From assembly GCF_014646055.1 (NCBI RefSeq), contig NZ_BMMS01000042.1, positions 173 to 50,736 of the forward strand: a stretch of DNA of 50,564 bases. The letters are read 5' to 3'. The number at the start of each line of letters is the position of its first letter. The first letter of the stretch is position 1. The notes under the pieces were generated by a model. It did not search any database, was not told the DNA's origin, and was given only the letters and a program-made list of their open reading frames with translations. A program made the position numbers and the translations under genes. This DNA is from Wenjunlia tyrosinilytica. GTDB lineage: Bacteria; Actinomycetota; Actinomycetes; Streptomycetales; Streptomycetaceae. Below are positions 4,972 to 39,738 of this stretch, piece by piece.

Positions 4972-5532
4972 GCTCGTGCCTCTCGGTCGACATCGGATCC
5001 GCACCGCGCGCACCCGCAGGTGATCGCCCCGGTCCCGCCCGGCACAGCAAAGCGCCCACGCCAGGGCGCGGGCAGGAACTGCGAACCACGGCATCCGCCA
5101 GTGACGCTACACCGCGGAACCGCCCGACACCACAGAGCAGCGATCCGCTTGGGACCTTCAGGAGCCGAAGGCCGCTCGGCCGCATCACACAACGAGCCGC
5201 CCGCGTGGGGAAGGCGCCCGACGCCCGGCGCCAGACGCCCGCTGCGCAGGACCGGCAATACGCAGTGAGGCGAGGAGCCGTTGACGCCCGGGACCGGCGA
5301 CCGCCCGTCCCGGGCGGCTCCCGGCGGCCGTGTTTTCAGGCACGGGTGTGCATGCAGGCCCTCGAAGAACTCGAGGAACGCCCGGGGTGTCGGCGGGGAT
5401 CCCGCGGCAGGACACCAGGGCGCGGCCGGGCCAAGCTTCGCGGCAACAAGCATGAAATATCAGCCAGGCATTCGAACATGTCCGGCCTGTATCGGGAATT
5501 GCCCACGATGGGGGGTCTCCGTCTCGGTAGAC
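4972..5532. other. Long region without a recognisable gene
   Basis: This is upstream of the cold-shock gene. Open frames exist on both strands only because of high GC; none shows a family motif, a convincing ribosome-binding site or consistent codon use. Part of it is likely the long 5' untranslated leader typical of cold-shock genes. A less GC-rich patch lies at about 5445-5490. Confidence 0.4.
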
Positions 5533-5979
5533 ATGACTCACGAGACGGACGGGGACCCGTTGAAGGTTCGCAGGACTACAAAGCTCGGCATCATGGCGTG
5601 CTCCGTGCTGCTGCCGATCACCGCCACGTCTGTGGCGCCGACCATCGCCGAACCCCGGACTTCCATACCGGACGGCGACTACTACTGCATCACGCCGGAT
5701 TCGGAAAAGGGAGGGACGAGATCGGTGGTCGTTACACGGCGGTCAATGACAGATCTGGTCGAACTGGTCGGCGCGGCGGCTCACCCAGAACGGGTCGAGC
5801 AGTACCGTGTGTGCCTGGCCAGTGGTCTCCATGGCCGGATCAAAGCACTCGCTCGCAGGTGCGTCCACTGGGTGTCCCGACGGGTGAGACGGCGACCGGG
5901 GCGACGGTCGGGCGGGGCCCCGAGGCATCGTCTCGCTTCAAGTCGTGCTGGTGCGCCGTCACCACCTGTGGTTACCTGA
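5533..5979 (+). CDS. Possible small exported protein, unrecognised
   Basis: From ATG 5533 the protein begins MTHETDGDPLKVRRTTK followed by a hydrophobic stretch LGIMACSVLLPITATSVA, resembling a signal peptide, then EPRTSIPDGDYYCITPD. Third-position GC is only moderate and the second half (after about residue 85) becomes Arg-rich and looks non-coding, so the gene may be truncated or spurious. It ends just before the sulfur leader peptide at 5984. No function is assigned. Confidence 0.3.
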   Translation: MTHETDGDPLKVRRTTKLGIMACSVLLPITATSVAPTIAEPRTSIPDGDYYCITPDSEKGGTRSVVVTRRSMTDLVELVGAAAHPERVEQYRVCLASGLHGRIKALARRCVHWVSRRVRRRPGRRSGGAPRHRLASSRAGAPSPPVVT

Positions 5980-9322: not shown

Positions 9323-10450
9323 TCACCTCTTGCGCCACTCCTCGGCCAGCAACTCGTAGGACCGCACCCGGTCCGCGTGGCCGTGGGTGATCGTGGTGAT
9401 CAGCAGCTCGTCGGCGAGGGTGGCCTCCTGGAGCTGTTCCAGCTGGTCGGCGACCCGGCCCGGGGAGCCGACGAACTGGGTGTCGAGGCGGTCCTGGACC
9501 AACGCCCGGTCCGCGTCGGACCATGCGTGGGCGCGCGCCTCGTCGGGCGTGGGGAACTGGATCGCGCCCTCGGCGGTACGGATGCTGCGGACCCAGAGGC
9601 CGTAGCCGGTGGCGAGTTCGCGGGCGGTCTCGTCGTCCTCGGCGACCACGACGTCCGCGGACACGCTGACGTACGGCTTGTCCAGGACGTCGGAAGGCTG
9701 GAACGCGGCGCGGTAGCCCTCCGCTGCTTCCAGCACCGTGGCCGGACTGACGTGGTAATTGGCCGCGAACCGCAGGCCATTGCGGCCCGCGACCTCGGCG
9801 CTCTCGCCGCCGCTGCTGCCCAGGATCCAGATCTCGACGTCGGCGCCCTCTCCTGGCACGACGTGGGCCTCGACGCCGTCAGCGGAGCGGTACGTGCCCG
9901 CCAGCAACGCCAGGATGTCGTCGATCTGCTCGCCGTAGTCCTGCGACTCGGCGTTCGGCAGAAGGAGAAGCTTGCGCTGGAGGGCGATGCGTGGTGAGCC
10001 GAGCAGGTGCTCGAAGGAGAACCGGGGCGGGATGCGCAGGCCGCCCGGGGCGCGGCCGTCGACCACCGGAGTCGCGGTCGGCAGCGGGGTGGCGGAGCCA
10101 CCGGGCGGGCGTCCGCCGGAGCGGCCGAGGCCCACGTCGAGGCGCCCGGGGTGCAGGGCGTCGATCAGGCCGAACTCCTCGACCGTGGACAGGGCGGTGC
10201 GGTGCCCGAGCTGTACGGCACCGGAACCGAGCCGGATGGTCGAGGTCGCGGAGGCGGTCAGGGCGAGGACGACCGCGGGCGAGGTGCCGGCCACGCCCGG
10301 GTTGAGGTGGTGTTCGGCGAACCAGTAACGGGCGTACCCGAAGCTCTCGGCCTGCCGGGCCAGGTCGATGGAGTTGCGCAGCGCCTCGGTGGCGGTGGAA
10401 CCGGACGAGATCGGGACCAGGTCCAGGACGCCGAGGGGGATGTCGGACAT
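9323..10450 (-). CDS. Luciferase-like monooxygenase, MsnO8-type
   Basis: A 375-residue LLM-class flavin-dependent oxidoreductase. It starts at ATG 10450 (MSDIPLGVLDLVPISSGST), continues with RYWFAEHHLNPGVAGTSPAV, SGAVQLGHRTALSTVEEFGL and the C-terminal VGSPGRVADQLEQL block. This pattern (SVLDL near the N-terminus, WxAEHH, GGVMLPNH-like strand) defines the MsnO8 family. It uses reduced FMN supplied in trans; the substrate is unknown. It is the last of four LLM genes on this strand, 14 bp after the next one, behind a cysteine leader peptide, which points to a role in scavenging organic sulfur. Confidence 0.85.
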   Translation of the reverse strand: MSDIPLGVLDLVPISSGSTATEALRNSIDLARQAESFGYARYWFAEHHLNPGVAGTSPAVVLALTASATSTIRLGSGAVQLGHRTALSTVEEFGLIDALHPGRLDVGLGRSGGRPPGGSATPLPTATPVVDGRAPGGLRIPPRFSFEHLLGSPRIALQRKLLLLPNAESQDYGEQIDDILALLAGTYRSADGVEAHVVPGEGADVEIWILGSSGGESAEVAGRNGLRFAANYHVSPATVLEAAEGYRAAFQPSDVLDKPYVSVSADVVVAEDDETARELATGYGLWVRSIRTAEGAIQFPTPDEARAHAWSDADRALVQDRLDTQFVGSPGRVADQLEQLQEATLADELLITTITHGHADRVRSYELLAEEWRKR

Positions 10451-10464
10451 GTGCGGAGGGCTCC

Positions 10465-11550
10465 TCAGCGGTCGGCGGGCACGGACACGGGATCCGCGAG
10501 GACCGGGCCCCATGAAAACGGTGGATCGGGGATCTCGCGGCGCAGCACGGGCGCGATGTCCGACTGGAACAGTTCGAGGGAATCGCGGTGTTGACGATCC
10601 GTCAGTCCTCCTGCATCCGCATGCAGATGGAGCACGGTGTGCCCGAACCGTTCGTGGTAGCAGTGCACCTTCTCGATGATCTGCTGGGGGCTGCCGATCA
10701 GCGCCGAGCTACGCTCCACGAAGTCTTCCAGGGTCGAGAACACCGGCTCCAGGCCCAGCCGCTTCTGAAACTCCAGGTTCCCCTCGAACACGGGCCGGTA
10801 GTCGGCGATCGCCTCCTGGGAGGTGCGGGCCGCGTAGAGGCCCGCCGTCCCCGCACCGACCGCGATGGCAGCCGGATCGTGGCCGTAGTGCTCCCAGCGC
10901 TCGCGGTAGTAGCGGATCAACTCGGCATAGGGCTCTATGGGGTTGGTGACGTTGGCGGAGAAGAGCGGGTCTCCATGGCGGGCGGCCAGGTCGACCGACT
11001 CCTTGCTGGTCGCGCTGCCGTGCCAGACCCTGACCGGCTGCTGGAGGGGACGGGGCCAGACCTCCGCGTCCTTGAGTTCCGGGCGGAAGCGGGTCTTGGC
11101 GGTCACCTTGTCCTGGCGCCAGATCCTGCGGAACACCTCGTAGCTCTCGGCGTTGCGGTCCCACTGGTCCTCGGGGGTGACCTGGAACAGGCCCCGCTGG
11201 GCGGCCCCGTTGCCCTTGCCTATGATCAGCTCGAGTCGTCCACCGGAGAGATGGTCGAGGGTCGCGTAGTCCTCGTACGCCCGCACCGGGTCGAGGAGGC
11301 TGAGCGTGGTCACCGCGGTGAACAGCCGGATACGGGAGGTGAGGGCGGCGATGTGACTGAGGACGACGGGCGGCGAGGAGGAGATGAAGGGCCGCTCGTG
11401 CCGCTCCCCCACGCCGAAGCCGTCGAAGCCCAGCTCCTCAGCGAGGAGCGCGTTGTCGAGCACCTCGCGGAAGCGGTCCTGGGTGGGCTTTCGTACGCCC
11501 GTCACCGGGTGCGGGGCGTGCACGATCAAGGTGATGGCGAGGAACTTCAT
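10465..11550 (-). CDS. Luciferase-like FMN-dependent monooxygenase
   Basis: A 361-residue LLM enzyme: MKFLAITLIVHAP, GFDGFGVGERHERPFISSSP, TRIRLFTAVTTLSLLDPVRA, DHLSGGRLELIIGKGN, then RVWHGSATSKESVDLAARHG. The bacterial-luciferase TIM barrel is complete, with an IGSPQQIIEKV block near the C-terminus. The ATG at 11550 overlaps the stop of the upstream LLM gene by 4 bp (ATGA), indicating tight coupling. It probably oxidises a small organosulfur compound together with its neighbours. That substrate class is inferred only from the leader peptide and operon. Confidence 0.87.
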   Translation of the reverse strand: MKFLAITLIVHAPHPVTGVRKPTQDRFREVLDNALLAEELGFDGFGVGERHERPFISSSPPVVLSHIAALTSRIRLFTAVTTLSLLDPVRAYEDYATLDHLSGGRLELIIGKGNGAAQRGLFQVTPEDQWDRNAESYEVFRRIWRQDKVTAKTRFRPELKDAEVWPRPLQQPVRVWHGSATSKESVDLAARHGDPLFSANVTNPIEPYAELIRYYRERWEHYGHDPAAIAVGAGTAGLYAARTSQEAIADYRPVFEGNLEFQKRLGLEPVFSTLEDFVERSSALIGSPQQIIEKVHCYHERFGHTVLHLHADAGGLTDRQHRDSLELFQSDIAPVLRREIPDPPFSWGPVLADPVSVPADR

Positions 11551-12956
11551 GACGCCACACGCTCGTCGCGTATCTCGTCGATGGGGGTCCCCCCGCTCGA
11601 GCGAAGCCGAGAGTGGGGCAGAGCCAGACCGAGGTGGTCGCGCAGAGTGGTGCCCGCGTACTCCGTGCGGTACACGCCGCGTTCCTGGAGCAGCGGGACG
11701 ACCTGGTCGGCGAAGGGGTCGAGGCCACTCGGGGTGATGTGCGGGACGAGGATGAAGCCGTCGCTGGCGTCGGCCTGGACGAAGTCGTTGATGGTCTCGG
11801 CGACGGTGGCTGGGGAGCCGACGAAGTTCTGGCGGTTGCCCGTCTCGATGACCAGGTCGCGGATGGACCACTTGTTGGCGGAGGCGAGTTCGCGCCACTC
11901 GCGGGCCGTGGCCAGCGGGTCGCGGTACATCCGTACCTGGGCGCGGCCCCGGGCGATGGTGTGCTCGCCGAGATCCGGGGCGATGTCGGGGAGCGGGCCG
12001 TCCGGGTCGTACGCGGACAGGTCCCGGTTCCAGACGAACTCCAGGTGCTTGATGGCGGTGGCCCCGCTCACCTGCTGGCGGCGCACCTCGCGGGCCAGTT
12101 CCTCCGCCTCGGCGTCGGTGTCGCCGAGCACGAAGCTCGCGGCGGGCAGGATCAGCAGCTGGTCGCGGCCGCGGCCGTACCGGGCGAGGCGCCCCTTGAC
12201 GTCGGCGTAGAAGGCCTGGCCCTCCCTCAGGGTGGCGTACCGGCTGAAGATGGCGTCGGCGCTCGACGCGGCGAACTCGCGCCCCTCGTCGGAGTCTCCG
12301 GCCTGGAAGATCACCGGACGCCCCTGCGGGCTGCGCGGGACGTTGAACTGCCCCTGGATGTCGAAGTGCCGGCCCTGGTGGACGAAGGCTCCGGCCTGCG
12401 CGTCGCGCAGGAAGGTGCCGGTCTCCCGGTCGGCGACGATGTCGTCCCCGTGCCAGGAGTCGAAGAGTTCGTTCGCCGTGGCCAGGAACTCCTTGGCGCG
12501 GGAGTAGCGCTCCTCCTGCGGGAGGAAGCCGCCGCGGCGGAAGTTCTCGCCGGTGAAGGCGTCCCAGGAGGTGACGACGTTCCAGGCGGCGCGGCCGCCG
12601 GAGAGGTGGTCGAGGCTGGCGAACTGGCGAGCCACCTCGTAGGGCTCGTTGAAGGTGGAGTTGATGGTGCCGGTCAGGCCGAGGTGCTCGGTGACGGCGG
12701 CGAGCGCGGCGAGGATCGTGAAGGTGTCGGGTCGGCCGACGATGTCCAAGTCGTATATTTTCCCGCCCTGTTCGCGCAGTCTGAGCCCCTCGGCGAGGAA
12801 CAGGAAGTCGAACTTGGCGCGTTCGGCGGTCTGCGCGAAGTGGACGAAGGAACTGAACTCGATGTGGCTGCCGGCCTTCGGGTCGCTCCACACCGTGGTG
12901 TTGTTGACGCCCGGGAAGTGCGCGGCCAGATGGATCTGCTTCAGCGGCTTGCTCAT
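11547..12956 (-). CDS. NtaA/SnaA/DszA-family FMN-dependent monooxygenase
   Basis: A 469-residue flavin monooxygenase of the family that includes nitrilotriacetate and dibenzothiophene-sulfone monooxygenases. Signature regions are LKQIHLAAHFPGVNNTTVW, FDFLFLAEGLRLRE, TFNEPYEVARQFASLDHLS, GGRAAWNVVTSWD and RPVIFQAGDSDEGREFAASS. Reduced FMN comes from a separate reductase. The last 25 residues (LPHSRLRSSGGTPIDEI) are encoded by a streptomycete palindromic repeat at 11582-11618 and are probably not native. Operon position: second LLM gene after the cysteine leader peptide, 20 bp after its predecessor. Confidence 0.88.
   Translation of the reverse strand: MSKPLKQIHLAAHFPGVNNTTVWSDPKAGSHIEFSSFVHFAQTAERAKFDFLFLAEGLRLREQGGKIYDLDIVGRPDTFTILAALAAVTEHLGLTGTINSTFNEPYEVARQFASLDHLSGGRAAWNVVTSWDAFTGENFRRGGFLPQEERYSRAKEFLATANELFDSWHGDDIVADRETGTFLRDAQAGAFVHQGRHFDIQGQFNVPRSPQGRPVIFQAGDSDEGREFAASSADAIFSRYATLREGQAFYADVKGRLARYGRGRDQLLILPAASFVLGDTDAEAEELAREVRRQQVSGATAIKHLEFVWNRDLSAYDPDGPLPDIAPDLGEHTIARGRAQVRMYRDPLATAREWRELASANKWSIRDLVIETGNRQNFVGSPATVAETINDFVQADASDGFILVPHITPSGLDPFADQVVPLLQERGVYRTEYAGTTLRDHLGLALPHSRLRSSGGTPIDEIRDERVAS
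11582..11618. repeat. Streptomycete palindromic repeat inserted in a CDS
   Basis: The segment GGGGGTCCCCCCGCTCGAGC followed by GAAGCCGAGAGTGGGG resembles the short imperfect-palindrome element (core CTCGAGCGAAGCCGAGAG) that I recognise as frequent in streptomycete intergenic DNA. Here it lies inside the 3' end of the NtaA-family gene and supplies its C-terminal codons without breaking the frame. Confidence 0.6.
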
Positions 12957-12976
12957 GTCGGTGCGGTCCTTCCGGC

Positions 12977-14188
12977 TCAGGCGGTGGCTGCGGCGTAGCG
13001 GTTGGCGGGGCGGGATAGACCGAGCAGCCCGCGCAGGGTGTCGGCCTCGTACGCGCGGCGGAAGGCGCCCCGGCGCTGAAGTTCGGGGACCAGGCCCTGG
13101 GTGATCGCCGGGAGGTCGTGACCGGCGACGGCGGGACGCAGCCGGAAGCCGGACAGCCCCGACGACTGCAGCTCCTGCAGCAGATCGGCGAGTTGGGCGG
13201 GGGTGCCGGTGAAGATCGGGGCGTCGCTGGTGTACGGGTATCCCGCACGGGCGTCCAGGCGCTCCCGGCGGGCCGCAGCCTCTGCGGGATCGTGGTCGAG
13301 GAAGACCACCAGGTCGCCGAAGACGTGCAGGGTCTCGTCGGCGCGGCCGGCCGCCGTCTGCTCGGCGCGGATCTCCTCGACGATGGCACGGGCCCGACCG
13401 GCGTCGTGCGGGGTGACGTAACCGATGTCGGCGGCCTGGGCCACCAGCCGGTAGGGGATGGTCGCGTGGGCCAGGGCGCTGACGAGCGGCTGGCCCTGGG
13501 GTGGGCGGGGCGTGATCGAGGGGCCTTTGACGCTGAAGTGCCTGCCCTCGAAGTCGATGTAGTGCAGCTTGTCCCGGTCGATGAAGCGGCCGGTGGCGAC
13601 GTCCCGGATCTCCGCGTCGTCCTCCCAGCTGTCCCAGAGTCGGCGCACGACCTCGACATAGTCGGCGGCCTCGTTGAAGGCGTCGGCCACCACTTCCTGC
13701 ACAGCAGGCGTGTCGTAGTCCTCTATGCGGAATGGCGGGAACGTCCGGCGTCCGAAGTGCGCGGCCTCGTTCTGGCGTGCCGTGATCTGTACGCGCAGGC
13801 CCGCGCGTCCGGTGCTCACATAGTCGAGGGTGGCGATCGCCTTGGAGATGTGGAACGGCTCCGTGTGGGTGGCCACCACCGTCGGCACCACACCTATGTG
13901 GCGGGTCAGCGGGGCGACCCGGGCGGCGATGAGGACGGCGTCCAGGCGGCCGCGGACCTGGTCGGTGCGGCCGTCGGGTTCGGTGAAGGATGAGGACTGG
14001 AGGCCGAGTGCGTCCTCGATGGTCACGAAGTCGAGCAGACCGCGCTCGGCCTCGGTGACGAGATCGGTCCAGTAGGCGGCGGTGAGCAGTTCGCGGGGAC
14101 GGGCGACGGGCTCGCGCCAGGCGGCCGGATGCCAGCCGGCGCCGTCGAGGGCGACGGCGAGGTGCAGAGGGGAGGGTGACGAGGACAT
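12977..14188 (-). CDS. Luciferase-like FMN-dependent monooxygenase, first gene of operon
   Basis: A 403-residue LLM enzyme: LHLAVALDGAGWHPAAWREP, LLDFVTIEDALGLQSS, LDAVLIAARVAPLTRHIGVV, TRAGLRV-type barrel strand and PPQGQPLVSALAH, typical of the NtaA-like/SsuD-like group acting on alkyl or aryl substrates with FMNH2. It lies 75 bp downstream of the cysteine leader peptide (14264-14380) and heads the run of four LLM genes. ATG 14188 is preceded by AGGAAGGCACC. The substrate is unknown; an organosulfur compound is inferred from regulation. Confidence 0.87.
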   Translation of the reverse strand: MSSSPSPLHLAVALDGAGWHPAAWREPVARPRELLTAAYWTDLVTEAERGLLDFVTIEDALGLQSSSFTEPDGRTDQVRGRLDAVLIAARVAPLTRHIGVVPTVVATHTEPFHISKAIATLDYVSTGRAGLRVQITARQNEAAHFGRRTFPPFRIEDYDTPAVQEVVADAFNEAADYVEVVRRLWDSWEDDAEIRDVATGRFIDRDKLHYIDFEGRHFSVKGPSITPRPPQGQPLVSALAHATIPYRLVAQAADIGYVTPHDAGRARAIVEEIRAEQTAAGRADETLHVFGDLVVFLDHDPAEAAARRERLDARAGYPYTSDAPIFTGTPAQLADLLQELQSSGLSGFRLRPAVAGHDLPAITQGLVPELQRRGAFRRAYEADTLRGLLGLSRPANRYAAATA

Positions 14189-28544: not shown

Positions 28545-29379
28545 CTACGTGTCCAGGAGACCGGTGCGGAGCTTGGCCAGGATGCGGCTGAGCAGGCGGG
28601 AGATCTGCATCTGGCTGACGTTCAGCTCGCTGCCGACTGCAGCCTGGGTCAGCTCCTGGCCGAAGCGCATCTGGATGATGGTCCGCTCCCGCTCGTCGAG
28701 TTGCCGGAGCAGCGGGCCGAGCGCATTCACGTCCTCGAACAGTTCCAGGGCTGGGTCGTCGTCGCCCATGGTGTCCGTGTACGTGGGCCCGCTGTCGCCG
28801 GCTTCGCTTTCGCCGCTCGGGCCGTCGATGGAGCCGGCGACGTAGCCGTTGGCGGCCACGAGACCCTCGACGACCTCGTCCTCGGTCAGACCGAGATGGG
28901 CGGCGAGTTCCTTCACGTTCGGGCTGTGGCCGAGCGTGGTGGTGAGTGATTCCTCGCCTTCGGCGAGGCGGCGCGGAGTTCTTGCAGGCGTCGAGGTACG
29001 TGGACGGCCCAGGTGGTGTCGCGGAAGAAGCGCTTCATCTCGCCGACGATGTAAGGGATCGCGAAGGAGGTGAACTCGACCTCGCGCATCACGTCGAACC
29101 GGTCGATGGCCTTGATCAGACCGATCGTGCCGACCTGGACGACGTCCTCCAGGTCGCCGTTGCCCCTGTTGCGGAACCGGCGGGCCACGAACCGGACCAG
29201 GGACACGTTTCATCTCGATCAGAGTGTTGCGGACGTACTGATACTCGCCGCTGCCCTCTTCCAGCGGGGGCAGCCGGTCCAGGAACAGCCGGGACAGCAC
29301 ACGGGCTTCCCTGGGGGGCGACCTTGTCGGCGTCCTCGATCCACGGCAGTGCTTCGACGACGTTCACGGAGGGCGTCAT
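28545..29379 (-). pseudogene. Sigma-B/F/G-type RNA polymerase sigma factor with three single-base frameshifts
   Basis: All regions of a stress/sporulation sigma factor are present but split over three frames: ALPWIEDADKVAP | LSRLFLDRLPPLEEGSGEYQ, YVRNTLIEM | [60 protein letters not shown] (region 2) | [20 protein letters not shown] (region 3), then ERTIIQMRFGQELTQAAVGS and NVSQMQISRLLSRILAKLRT (region 4 HTH). The breaks lie at a six-C run (29313-29318), an AAA run (29208-29210) and a shortened C run near 28972. Each is one base, so the gene may well be intact in the organism. Repaired length is about 276 residues, normal. Confidence 0.85.
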
Positions 29380-35074: not shown

Positions 35075-37354
<2,280 letters not shown>

Positions 37355-37544: not shown

Positions 37545-38534
37545 ATGAACGTCACATCGCCGGAACCGGCCCTGCCGTCCGCTCGTGGTCGGATCTCGAC
37601 GGCGATCATCGAATACCTGCGGAGTACGGGACCACTTCCGAACGGCCGGGAGATTTCTGCCGCCGCCCCGATCGGAGACGATCTCCAGCTCGCCCTGTAC
37701 CTCTGCTACGAGCTGCACTACCGGGGATTCGCGGAAGTCGATGCCGACCGCGAGTGGGAGCCCGACCTGCTCAGGGTCCGGGCAGCCCTGGAGAAGCCGT
37801 TTCTCCAGGCTTTGCGTGACGCGGCGACCGTACACAAGCTCGCTGGCGAGGCACTGGACGAACTGCTGGTCGAACCAGTCGACGGCTCGGGCGTCAGCCA
37901 CTTCCTGCAGGACGAGGGAGAACTGTGGCAGATACGCGAGTACGCCGCCCAGCGCTCGCTCTACCACCTCAAGGAAGCCGACCCGCACGCCTGGGTGCTG
38001 CCCCGGTTGTGGGGCCGGGCGAAGGCGGGCATGGCGGCCGTGGAGTTCGACGAGTTCGGCGCGGGCCGCGCAGATCGCGTGCACGCCCGTCTGTTCGCCG
38101 ATCTCATGGCCGACCTCCAATTGGACACCGCCTACGGCCACTATCTCGACGCGGTCGGCCCCGAGGCCCTCGCCACCGTGAACCTGATGTCCCTCTTCGG
38201 CCTGCACCGCGCCCTTCGAGGCGCCCTGGTCGGACATTTCGCCACCGTCGAGATCACCTCGTCTCCGGGTTCACGTCGCCTGGCCCAAGCGATGCGGCGG
38301 ACCGGCGCCGGACCGGCCGCCGAGCACTTCTACGACGAGCACGTCGAGGCCGACGCCGTGCACGAACAGGTCGTCCGCCGGGAGGTCGTAGCGGGTCTGC
38401 TCGAAGAGGAGCCGCACCTCGACGGGGATGTGGCTTTCGGCGTGGACGCCACCACGTATCTCGAAGACCGCCTCGCCGAGCACCTCCTCGGCGCGTGGCG
38501 AGCAGGGGAGTCGTCGCTGCGCATGCCGGTCTGA
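37545..38534 (+). CDS. Iron-containing redox enzyme family protein (haem-oxygenase-like fold)
   Basis: A 329-residue, all-helical protein of the HOLD-type diiron family. Candidate metal ligands are in LCYELHYRGF, IREYAAQRSLYHLKEADPHA, AVEFDEFGAGRADRVHARLF and FYDEHVEADAVHEQVV (E/H/D clusters in successive helices). Members catalyse oxygen-dependent C-C or N-O chemistry; this subgroup is uncharacterised as far as I know. It is the first of three tightly packed genes with an MTQ2-like methyltransferase and a CDGSH Fe-S protein. ATG 37545 is clear; frame intact. It lies 190 bp after the catalase. Confidence 0.85.
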   Translation: MNVTSPEPALPSARGRISTAIIEYLRSTGPLPNGREISAAAPIGDDLQLALYLCYELHYRGFAEVDADREWEPDLLRVRAALEKPFLQALRDAATVHKLAGEALDELLVEPVDGSGVSHFLQDEGELWQIREYAAQRSLYHLKEADPHAWVLPRLWGRAKAGMAAVEFDEFGAGRADRVHARLFADLMADLQLDTAYGHYLDAVGPEALATVNLMSLFGLHRALRGALVGHFATVEITSSPGSRRLAQAMRRTGAGPAAEHFYDEHVEADAVHEQVVRREVVAGLLEEEPHLDGDVAFGVDATTYLEDRLAEHLLGAWRAGESSLRMPV

Positions 38535-38594
38535 CCGCTGTTCCGACCACGAACAGGTTCTGCGGCATCCGTGAGAACCGGAGACGACACCCCC

Positions 38595-39245
38595 ATGACC
38601 ACGGTCACTCTGCCCGGCGTCTACACCCCGCAGGACGACACCGACCTGCTCATCCGATTCCTGCGCGACGAAATCCTTCCCCCGCACGCCGAAGTCCTCG
38701 ACGTGGGCACGGGAACAGGTGCCGTCGCCCTGGCGGCGGCCCGACTCGGCGCCCGCGTCACGGCGATCGACATCTCCTGGCGAGCGGCTCTCAATGCCAA
38801 GATCAACGCGCTGCTTGCGCGTCTCGCGATCCTTGTCAGACGCGGCGACCTGCTGGCTCCCGTCTCGGGCAGGTCCTTCGACCTCATCCTCTCCAACCCG
38901 CCGTACGTGCCGGCCCCGACAGCCGCGTGCCCTCGGCGGGGTGCGGCGCGGGCCTGGGACGCGGGACACGACGGCCGTCTCGTGCTGGACCGGATCTGCG
39001 AGGACGTCCCCGGACTGCTGAAGCCCGGAGGAGTGCTGCTCGTGATCCAGTCCGCGCTGAGCGACCCGGAAGAGACGCTGCGCCGGTTGCGGGCGGCAGG
39101 CTTGGACGTCGGAATCGAGGAACATCGCAGCGTCGCCTTCGGCCCCGTCCTGCGGTCCCGCAGCGGCTGGCTGCGCGACCACGGCCTGATCGAGGACGAT
39201 GCCGGGAAGGAAGAGTTGGTGATCATTCGTGCCGTACGACTCTGA
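38595..39245 (+). CDS. HemK2/MTQ2-like protein methyltransferase
   Basis: A 216-residue SAM-dependent methyltransferase: LPGVYTPQDDTDLLIRFLR, EVLDVGTGTGAVALAAARLG (SAM motif I), VTAIDISWRAALNAKINALL, FDLILSNPPYVPAP (NPPY, the hallmark of glutamine or amino methylation by HemK-like enzymes), RLVLDRICEDVPGLLKPGGV. ATG 38595 aligns with MTQ2-type starts; upstream in-frame codons are not conserved. The CDGSH gene overlaps its 3' end by 17 bp. Co-occurrence with the diiron enzyme suggests it modifies a protein or small molecule in the same pathway; target unknown. Confidence 0.85.
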   Translation: MTTVTLPGVYTPQDDTDLLIRFLRDEILPPHAEVLDVGTGTGAVALAAARLGARVTAIDISWRAALNAKINALLARLAILVRRGDLLAPVSGRSFDLILSNPPYVPAPTAACPRRGAARAWDAGHDGRLVLDRICEDVPGLLKPGGVLLVIQSALSDPEETLRRLRAAGLDVGIEEHRSVAFGPVLRSRSGWLRDHGLIEDDAGKEELVIIRAVRL

Positions 39246-39738
39246 TGAGCGACGCTGCCGCATAGTTGCCCGGCACGCGGGGCCACTCCTGGTCGAGGGC
39301 CCGGTGGACGTCACGCTGGAGCACGGCACGAGCGTCTCGTCCTACCGGTTATGTGTCGCGCTGTGCACCTACCCGTGGTGCGACACCAGTCACCGCCGGT
39401 CCGAGCCGCCCGTTCCGCACACATGGGGGCCTGGGCGGGGTTCGGCAGGGCCCGGAGTGCCGGGGGTGCCCGACGCGAGTTCCGAGGATGCGTTGCCGCG
39501 CCCGCAGTCCGCCACGGCGCGGTTGCCGGGCTCGGAGTGGATGCGGGGGTGGTTGCTGCGGCTCGGTTCGGGGGCGCCCAGCAAGTCTCAGCTGCTCGGC
39601 ACCGGGCTCCGGCTCGGCAGATCGAGTCCCGGCAACGCTCGTGCCGTACGCGACCCGGCACACTGCGCCGGGCCGCGTACGGGAGGGGGTGGGGCGCTCT
39701 ATGTCAGGGCGACGATGTTGCGGGCCATGCGCTCGTAG
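39229..39738 (+). CDS. CDGSH iron-sulfur domain protein with a short internal deletion
   Basis: From GTG 39229: VPYDSDERRCRIVARHAGPL, LVEGPVDVTLEHGTSVSSYR, LCVALCTYPWCDTSHRRS. The [2Fe-2S] motif of actinobacterial CDGSH proteins is C-x-C-x2-S-x3-P-x-C-D-x-S-H, usually with CRRSRxxPxCDTSHR. Here the segment between the first Cys and TYPWCDTSH is shortened by about six residues in frame, so cluster binding through the normal 3Cys-1His set is doubtful. After HRRS about 110 more codons without resemblance follow; the native stop seems lost. Translationally coupled to the methyltransferase. Confidence 0.65.
   Translation: MPYDSDERRCRIVARHAGPLLVEGPVDVTLEHGTSVSSYRLCVALCTYPWCDTSHRRSEPPVPHTWGPGRGSAGPGVPGVPDASSEDALPRPQSATARLPGSEWMRGWLLRLGSGAPSKSQLLGTGLRLGRSSPGNARAVRDPAHCAGPRTGGGGALYVRATMLRAMRS

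Follow-up and report, generated by a model that had tools for sequence, protein, structure and literature searches.

What do a haem-oxygenase-like diiron enzyme, a HemK2/MTQ2-type methyltransferase and a CDGSH-type iron-sulfur protein have to do with each other? Genes for the three lie packed together in a 50,564-nucleotide stretch of Wenjunlia tyrosinilytica DNA, hereafter the window, from contig C42 (NZ_BMMS01000042.1) of an 8.49-Mb draft genome (G000). The encoded proteins are referred to below as HOLD, MT and CDGSH:

37545-38534, + strand: HOLD, haem-oxygenase-like diiron enzyme (iron-containing redox enzyme family), 329 amino acids (aa), matching PF14518 (4.1e-55)
38595-39245, + strand: MT, HemK2/MTQ2-type S-adenosylmethionine methyltransferase, 216 aa from the ATG at 38595 (224 aa from a GTG at 38571), matching TIGR00537
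39229-39738, + strand: CDGSH-type open reading frame (ORF), 169 aa, GTG start at 39229 and stop at 39738, related to PF09360, with homology confined to the domain at 39259-39399

HOLD and MT are separated by 60 bp, MT and CDGSH overlap by 17 bp, and all three are read from the + strand. These coordinates, the gene order and both spacings had been given in an earlier note on this DNA and were all recovered from the sequence. Each of the three families is individually known and routinely annotated under its separate name. No paper on the combination was found in literature searches, which left subscription journals mostly uncovered.

In the family to which this genome belongs, HOLD, MT and CDGSH are retained, or lost, as one unit. 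Among the first 31 genomes sampled (this genome and 30 relatives) a HOLD match was present in 24, and was strong in 23. A larger sample of 200 genomes, taken as Streptomycetaceae since the named relatives are nearly all Streptomyces, was searched with thresholds of 1e-40 for HOLD, 1e-45 for MT and 1e-10 for CDGSH. HOLD was found in 152 of these, MT in 144 and a CDGSH of the subfamily in question in 153; 143 genomes had the whole trio and 46 had none of it. The exceptions are few: eight genomes with HOLD and CDGSH but no MT, one with HOLD alone, one with CDGSH alone, and one with MT and CDGSH but no HOLD, where the MT match is partial. One genome scored as lacking MT (G008) retains a fragment of the gene. 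HOLD and CDGSH occur together in 151 genomes and are discordant in three. Two HOLD matches are listed in 11 of the 152 genomes, some perhaps representing split genes. Furthermore, HOLD-bearing and HOLD-less genomes are both found within at least five genera (g3, g8, g9, g13 and g14; the genus was listed for 20 of the 48 HOLD-less genomes).

The genes are also physically linked. In 80 loci, which are the best HOLD matches in named genomes and not independent of one another, MT lies within 1.5 kb of HOLD in 71, CDGSH in 73 and both in 69. A tree of 115 loci contained one locus twice (L105 is L115), leaving 114 distinct loci. All three genes are present in 99 of these, arranged as HOLD-MT-CDGSH (49 loci), as MT-CDGSH-HOLD (30) or with HOLD convergent to MT-CDGSH (20); one or both partners are missing nearby in the other 15. 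Mapped on a quick tree of HOLD, these three arrangements imply at least seven changes. That the genes stay clustered through repeated rearrangements argues strongly that they function together.

Across the phylum (246 genomes) a strong HOLD was found in 41 genomes at 45 loci, a count that excludes six weak matches of 21–25 bits and one fragment of 98 bits. MT was called at 220 bits or more; the next HemK-type match among the 246 genomes scores 104 bits, so that MT forms a separate score group. It was found at 17 loci in 15 genomes, and all 15 also encode HOLD (p = 1.8e-13, shared ancestry ignored). In four of them (G009, G222, G196 and G153) MT is unlinked from HOLD, being 171–223 kb away or on another contig. 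At 29 of the 45 loci a CDGSH gene is found no more than 1.5 kb from HOLD. This linkage was scored on 41 CDGSH places from a longer list; those in HOLD genomes that were not included lie, by their coordinates, far from HOLD. Chance proximity of the trio is thus ruled out by the linkage in 69 of 80 loci, the presence/absence pattern in the family and the association of MT with HOLD in the phylum. The pairing of HOLD with CDGSH is a property of this branch and not of CDGSH proteins at large. Since the pair is more widespread than MT, we take it to be older, and MT to be a later, dependent addition.

The three families are also found on Streptomyces plasmids. On the 62-kb Curtobacterium plasmid pW21 (L177, 7950-9259) the genes for HOLD and CDGSH share 4 bp, and MT is not annotated within the 17 kb shown. 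The small size of the set, its occasional duplication and its carriage on plasmids suggest a self-contained pathway that starts from a primary metabolite.

What the first enzyme may do is best approached through its structure. The AlphaFold2 model of HOLD (pLDDT 96) has the seven-helix haem-oxygenase fold that characterises the haem-oxygenase-like dimetal oxidases (HDOs). The nearest solved folds are HrmI (Z 32.4; root-mean-square deviation 2.6 over 302 residues), SznF (Z 28.1) and RohS (Z 28.0), all N-oxygenases by title or repute, followed in the ranking by an FlcD-like entry, FlcD and CADD. A sequence-profile comparison likewise places HrmI, SznF and RohS nearest. The predicted diiron ligands span 37974-38363 on the + strand:

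37974-37976, + strand: E144
38052-38054, + strand: E170
38082-38084, + strand: H180
38340-38342, + strand: H266
38352-38354, + strand: D270
38361-38363, + strand: H273

All six are invariant in 46 of 46 HOLD sequences, and on the model the protein combines the haem-oxygenase fold with an invariant site of three histidines and three carboxylates. The ligands align with E189, E215 and H225 of SznF (numbered by hand on the alignment) and with its H-x3-D-x2-H motif, at identical spacing. Residue 177, which aligns with SznF D222, is D or E in 31 of 46 sequences and D in the window; we take the D222 position to be the additional (fourth) carboxylate ligand of N-oxygenases with three histidines and four carboxylates. 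A further ten residues are invariant in all 46 sequences (E56, Y59, E70, W71, D146, R154, R222, R225, G230 and E236), and H58, R60, R137 and K143 (45 of 46) are nearly so. By their conservation, these non-ligand positions are candidates for substrate binding. The ratio of nonsynonymous to synonymous substitution rates (dN/dS) of HOLD, calculated against seven close relatives, is about 0.16–0.23.

HrmI, an L-lysine N-oxygenase of the hormaomycin pathway, is the best structural match and has in common with HOLD the E...H and H-x3-D-x2-H ligand pattern. The profile alignment sets a Phe of HrmI opposite E144, which makes the match of the first ligand uncertain. We know of no CDGSH or HemK2-type partner of HrmI. 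SznF, an N-methyl-arginine N-oxygenase, shares the ligand spacing of HOLD, whereas its cupin domain is absent from HOLD. The methyltransferase SznE acts before SznF and so provides a precedent for a methyltransferase working with an HDO, although SznE belongs to a different methyltransferase class from MT.

The MT of the window scores 117.2 bits against TIGR00537 (cut-off 87), placing it in the HemK2/MTQ2 family, and all 25 MTs scanned match the same model. NPPY, at residues 109-112 of the 224-aa form, is likewise kept in 25 of 25. With this motif and a modelled HemK2/PrmC fold, for which the nearest solved structures include N6AMT1/HemK2, PrmC and Mtq2, MT resembles HemK2/N6AMT1-MTQ2 and PrmC; it differs from them in having HOLD as a genomic partner, and is presumably too short to contain the N-terminal domain of PrmC. 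Its dN/dS is about 0.33–0.53. NPPY methyltransferases target planar nitrogens.

The third partner matches PF09360 as its sole Pfam family. The cluster motif CxC...PxCDxSH is kept in 119 of 120 distinct CDGSH domains, including that of a second set in the same genome, and CDTSH replaces CDGSH in proteins of this set. Thus, the copy in the window aside, the CDGSH proteins of the set carry the full cluster motif. To our knowledge, few partners have been assigned to CDGSH proteins in bacteria. According to the available parts of PMC3174974, single-motif proteins of type 4 predominate in Actinobacteria and Firmicutes and have no function assigned. The CDGSH proteins described here would be of this type.

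Electron supply is a known need in this enzyme class. Diiron HDOs require electrons for repeated turnover. The HDO literature consulted (PMC13108848, PMC13185094) describes, in mangotoxin biosynthesis, an HDO, MboA, with a dedicated Fe2S2 redox protein, MboB, in the authors' words possibly the first such pair characterised. The partner here is a small CDGSH protein, whereas MboB belongs to the NAD(P)H-flavin-Fe2S2 reductases. The set would be an HDO system with partners of a different kind.

Some clue to the substrate comes from genomes in which MT is replaced. Wide neighbourhoods were read for 33 of the 41 phylum genomes with HOLD (for G153 around MT only), 4-kb loci for seven, and none for G043. 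In 11 of the 33 a GT2 glycosyltransferase gene follows directly behind HOLD on the same strand at 12–45 bp (L140, L143, L146, L147, L148, L149, L150, L152, L154, L158 and L160), and MT is present in none of these. Ten of the 11 belong to other classes of the phylum, and seven also have CDGSH within 1.5 kb. A GCS2-type (ligase-like) gene lies back to back with MT at 43–46 bp in all three MT genomes of other classes (L156, L172 and L173). Both sets of distances are between profile matches and not between start and stop codons. The GCS2 adjacency is a lead, not proof. With GT2 in the place of MT and GCS2 as a neighbour, a small amino-acid-derived metabolite is favoured over a protein as the substrate.

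The explanation we prefer, to which we give about an even chance, is a conserved actinobacterial module acting on a small molecule, in which HOLD would oxygenate an amino-acid-derived metabolite, CDGSH would donate the electrons, and MT, or elsewhere GT2, would modify the compound. HOLD would bind two irons and activate O2, attacking a nitrogen of amino-acid origin or a carbon close to it, with the [2Fe-2S] cluster of CDGSH as its dedicated source of electrons. MT would methylate the same substrate on a planar nitrogen, either ahead of the oxidation or following it, and in lineages without MT the substrate would be glycosylated by GT2. The presence of CDGSH in 151 of the 152 HOLD-bearing genomes of the family, together with the MboA/MboB precedent, makes CDGSH the natural donor, and the chemistry of NPPY enzymes, taken with the action of SznF on N-methyl-arginine, makes a pair of N-methylation and N-oxygenation the most specific guess. 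A more far-reaching version, a widespread pathway in which CDGSH serves HOLD exclusively and the product is tailored by MT or GT2 interchangeably according to lineage, is possible rather than probable. The earlier note had proposed an oxidation/methylation pathway with an electron-transfer partner; this stays the best reading; in the window itself the iron-sulfur protein is probably impaired. The module is complete in 143 of the 200 genomes of the family and also occurs in other classes, and so ties the question of the CDGSH proteins to that of the HDOs by inheritance. If the proposal is true, bacterial CDGSH proteins gain a defined redox partner.

Several observations weigh against the small-molecule module. 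No CDGSH gene lies inside 1.5 kb at 16 of the 45 phylum HOLD loci, and a CDGSH match is absent altogether from nine of the 41 genomes with HOLD. In ten of these 41, neither CDGSH, MT nor GT2 was seen near HOLD, two of the ten (G043 and G212) not having been read widely. Conversely, 82 genomes of the phylum have some CDGSH match, and a strong HOLD is missing from 50 of them. The earlier note had held that the grouping would fall if the three families occurred independently in most genomes; they do not within this subfamily, where MT was never found without HOLD in the 246 genomes, but CDGSH proteins at large are partly independent. GCS2 is a multi-copy family with 3–7 matches per genome, HrmI is only 22% identical to HOLD, and a review, in the portions available, notes that HDOs with identical ligands can catalyse different chemistry. 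Finally, the CDGSH of the window itself is without one cluster ligand:

39368/39369, + strand: junction of an 18-bp in-frame gap in the CDGSH gene, from a DNA alignment with nine relatives

The gap removes six codons, among them the one for the second Cys in the CxC...PxCDxSH cluster site, making the window copy the sole exception among the 120 domains and leaving it without the complete ligand set of CDGSH [2Fe-2S] proteins. Its PF09360 score of 28.9 bits is just short of the cut-off of 29.5; the intact copy in the same genome scores 59.8. The family assignments of the earlier note therefore hold for HOLD and MT but only in part for CDGSH. Owing to an additional Cys nearby, which is present in relatives too, the shortened motif still has three Cys and one His and may bind some metal. 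Beyond base 39399, the remaining 112 residues match no recognisable family, and the tails of relatives vary as well, from about 2 to 30 residues in the nine aligned and longer in some others. The ORF was missed by a frame-plot gene caller, which is weak evidence as the caller also missed intact CDGSH genes elsewhere. Outside the gap, the dN/dS of the domain is about 0.1–0.5, so that the loss looks recent, or is an assembly error.

A second, intact trio is found on contig C16 of the same genome (L159, G000:C16:34000-51000), consisting of MT, CDGSH and a convergent HOLD that is 60% identical to that of the window:

7762-8733 of L159: HOLD of the second set
8847-10034 of L159, same strand as HOLD: GCS2-type gene, 114 bp from HOLD

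The window copy may therefore be decaying and inactive while the second set does the work, an explanation that is compatible with the proposed role of the family and that we place just short of an even chance. It is supported by the 18-bp loss being unique to the window copy, by the existence of the second set, and by the closest relative found, a locus on a 1.56-Mb Streptomyces plasmid (L176, NZ_CP109439.1). There, MT is 75% identical to that of the window and aligns over almost its full length, and the adjacent CDGSH has the full motif, but HOLD (5001-5540), 92% identical, is truncated to residues 150-329. On the other hand, HOLD and MT of the window have no internal stops and show a long-term dN/dS below 1, the shortened motif retains its three Cys and one His, and the gap may be an artefact of assembly. 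In terms of the small-molecule module, the window copy would probably work poorly, or would borrow the intact CDGSH of the second set.

The earlier note had offered a protein-modification system as an alternative, with MT methylating Gln or Lys of a protein, HOLD oxidising a residue of the same protein and CDGSH supplying the electrons. This is supported by the match of all 25 MTs to TIGR00537 and by the protein methyltransferases N6AMT1, PrmC and Mtq2 among the nearest folds. It is now less favoured and we regard it as unlikely. GT2 takes its place behind HOLD where MT is absent, GCS2 genes flank the set in several lineages, and both fit a small molecule. The trio is wholly absent from 46 of the 200 genomes of the family, so that modification of any such target is not essential. 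Moreover, no fourth protein or peptide is conserved beside the genes in the loci examined. A short ORF that could encode a substrate peptide, which the earlier note had suggested looking for, did not emerge as conserved. One ORF, encoding an acidic protein of about 60 aa that matches no Pfam family (e.g. L048, 9652-9840), is found no more than 500 bp from HOLD in 28 of the 80 Streptomyces loci, nearly all in the order HOLD-MT-CDGSH, and is not present in the window. Over all loci, its matches number 30 in that order and seven beside a HOLD that lacks MT, CDGSH or both. Peptidase-type ABC exporters (38 loci) and a short peptide resembling a precursor and lying some kb upstream (26 loci), both recognised by eye, come from the same syntenic clade and were rejected along with this ORF.

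Directly upstream of the trio lies a catalase gene, as the earlier note had claimed:

35075-37354, + strand: KatE-type large catalase, directly upstream of HOLD, matching PF00199 (3.4e-164), PF06628 and PF18011

This neighbour raises a different possibility, an oxidative-stress or iron-handling unit without an organic substrate, in which HOLD would consume O2 or peroxide, or oxidise iron, and CDGSH would be a partner in redox or cluster transfer. KatE lies within 10 kb of HOLD in nine of the 80 loci, and this enrichment looks real, as its 19 matches in 31 genomes predict about 0.1 loci in 1.58 Mb. SigB-type genes are found within the same distance in seven of the 80 and flank both sides on one plasmid (L179). 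However, neither is near most loci, and such a unit would leave unexplained why MT follows HOLD so strictly, and why GT2 is there. KatE was rejected as a defining member of the set, five of its nine loci having the full trio and four having HOLD without MT or CDGSH in similar contexts. We consider the stress or iron unit improbable; the KatE and SigB neighbours, which are not part of the set, fit expression under stress or in stationary phase.

The sigma-B-like stress block described in the earlier note is borne out as far as the adjacent KatE and, about 8 kb upstream of the trio, a gene for a sigma factor with Pfam regions 3 and 4, but the frame of the latter, judged by eye, shifts twice and the context does not define the set. 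By eye, this SigB-type gene (28545-29300 of the window) uses two frames, with the middle part shifted, and may be a pseudogene or reflect sequencing errors.

Self-sacrifice of the CADD type, in which HOLD would build a metabolite from its own side chains for MT or GT2 to modify, shares the fold (Z about 22) and could draw on the conserved Y59 (46 of 46) and K143 (45 of 46), but Tyr27 and Lys152 of CADD map, approximately, near HOLD residues 118-122 and 245, where there is no Tyr or Lys in the window or among the conserved positions, and the structurally closer enzymes HrmI, SznF and RohS use free substrates, making this explanation highly improbable.

Membership of a defence system was also considered and rejected. 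No PADLOC defence family was matched by HOLD or by the intact CDGSH domain of L026. For MT the matches were to a portion of mad2 (1.7e-24) and, at low strength, to a type II methyltransferase. Among phage families, HOLD and CDGSH had no match and MT had four, all methyltransferase-like or unknown.

Elsewhere in the window, positions 9323-14188 hold four consecutive genes on the minus strand, and at least some of their N-terminal parts resemble, by eye only, flavin-dependent (luciferase-like) monooxygenases.

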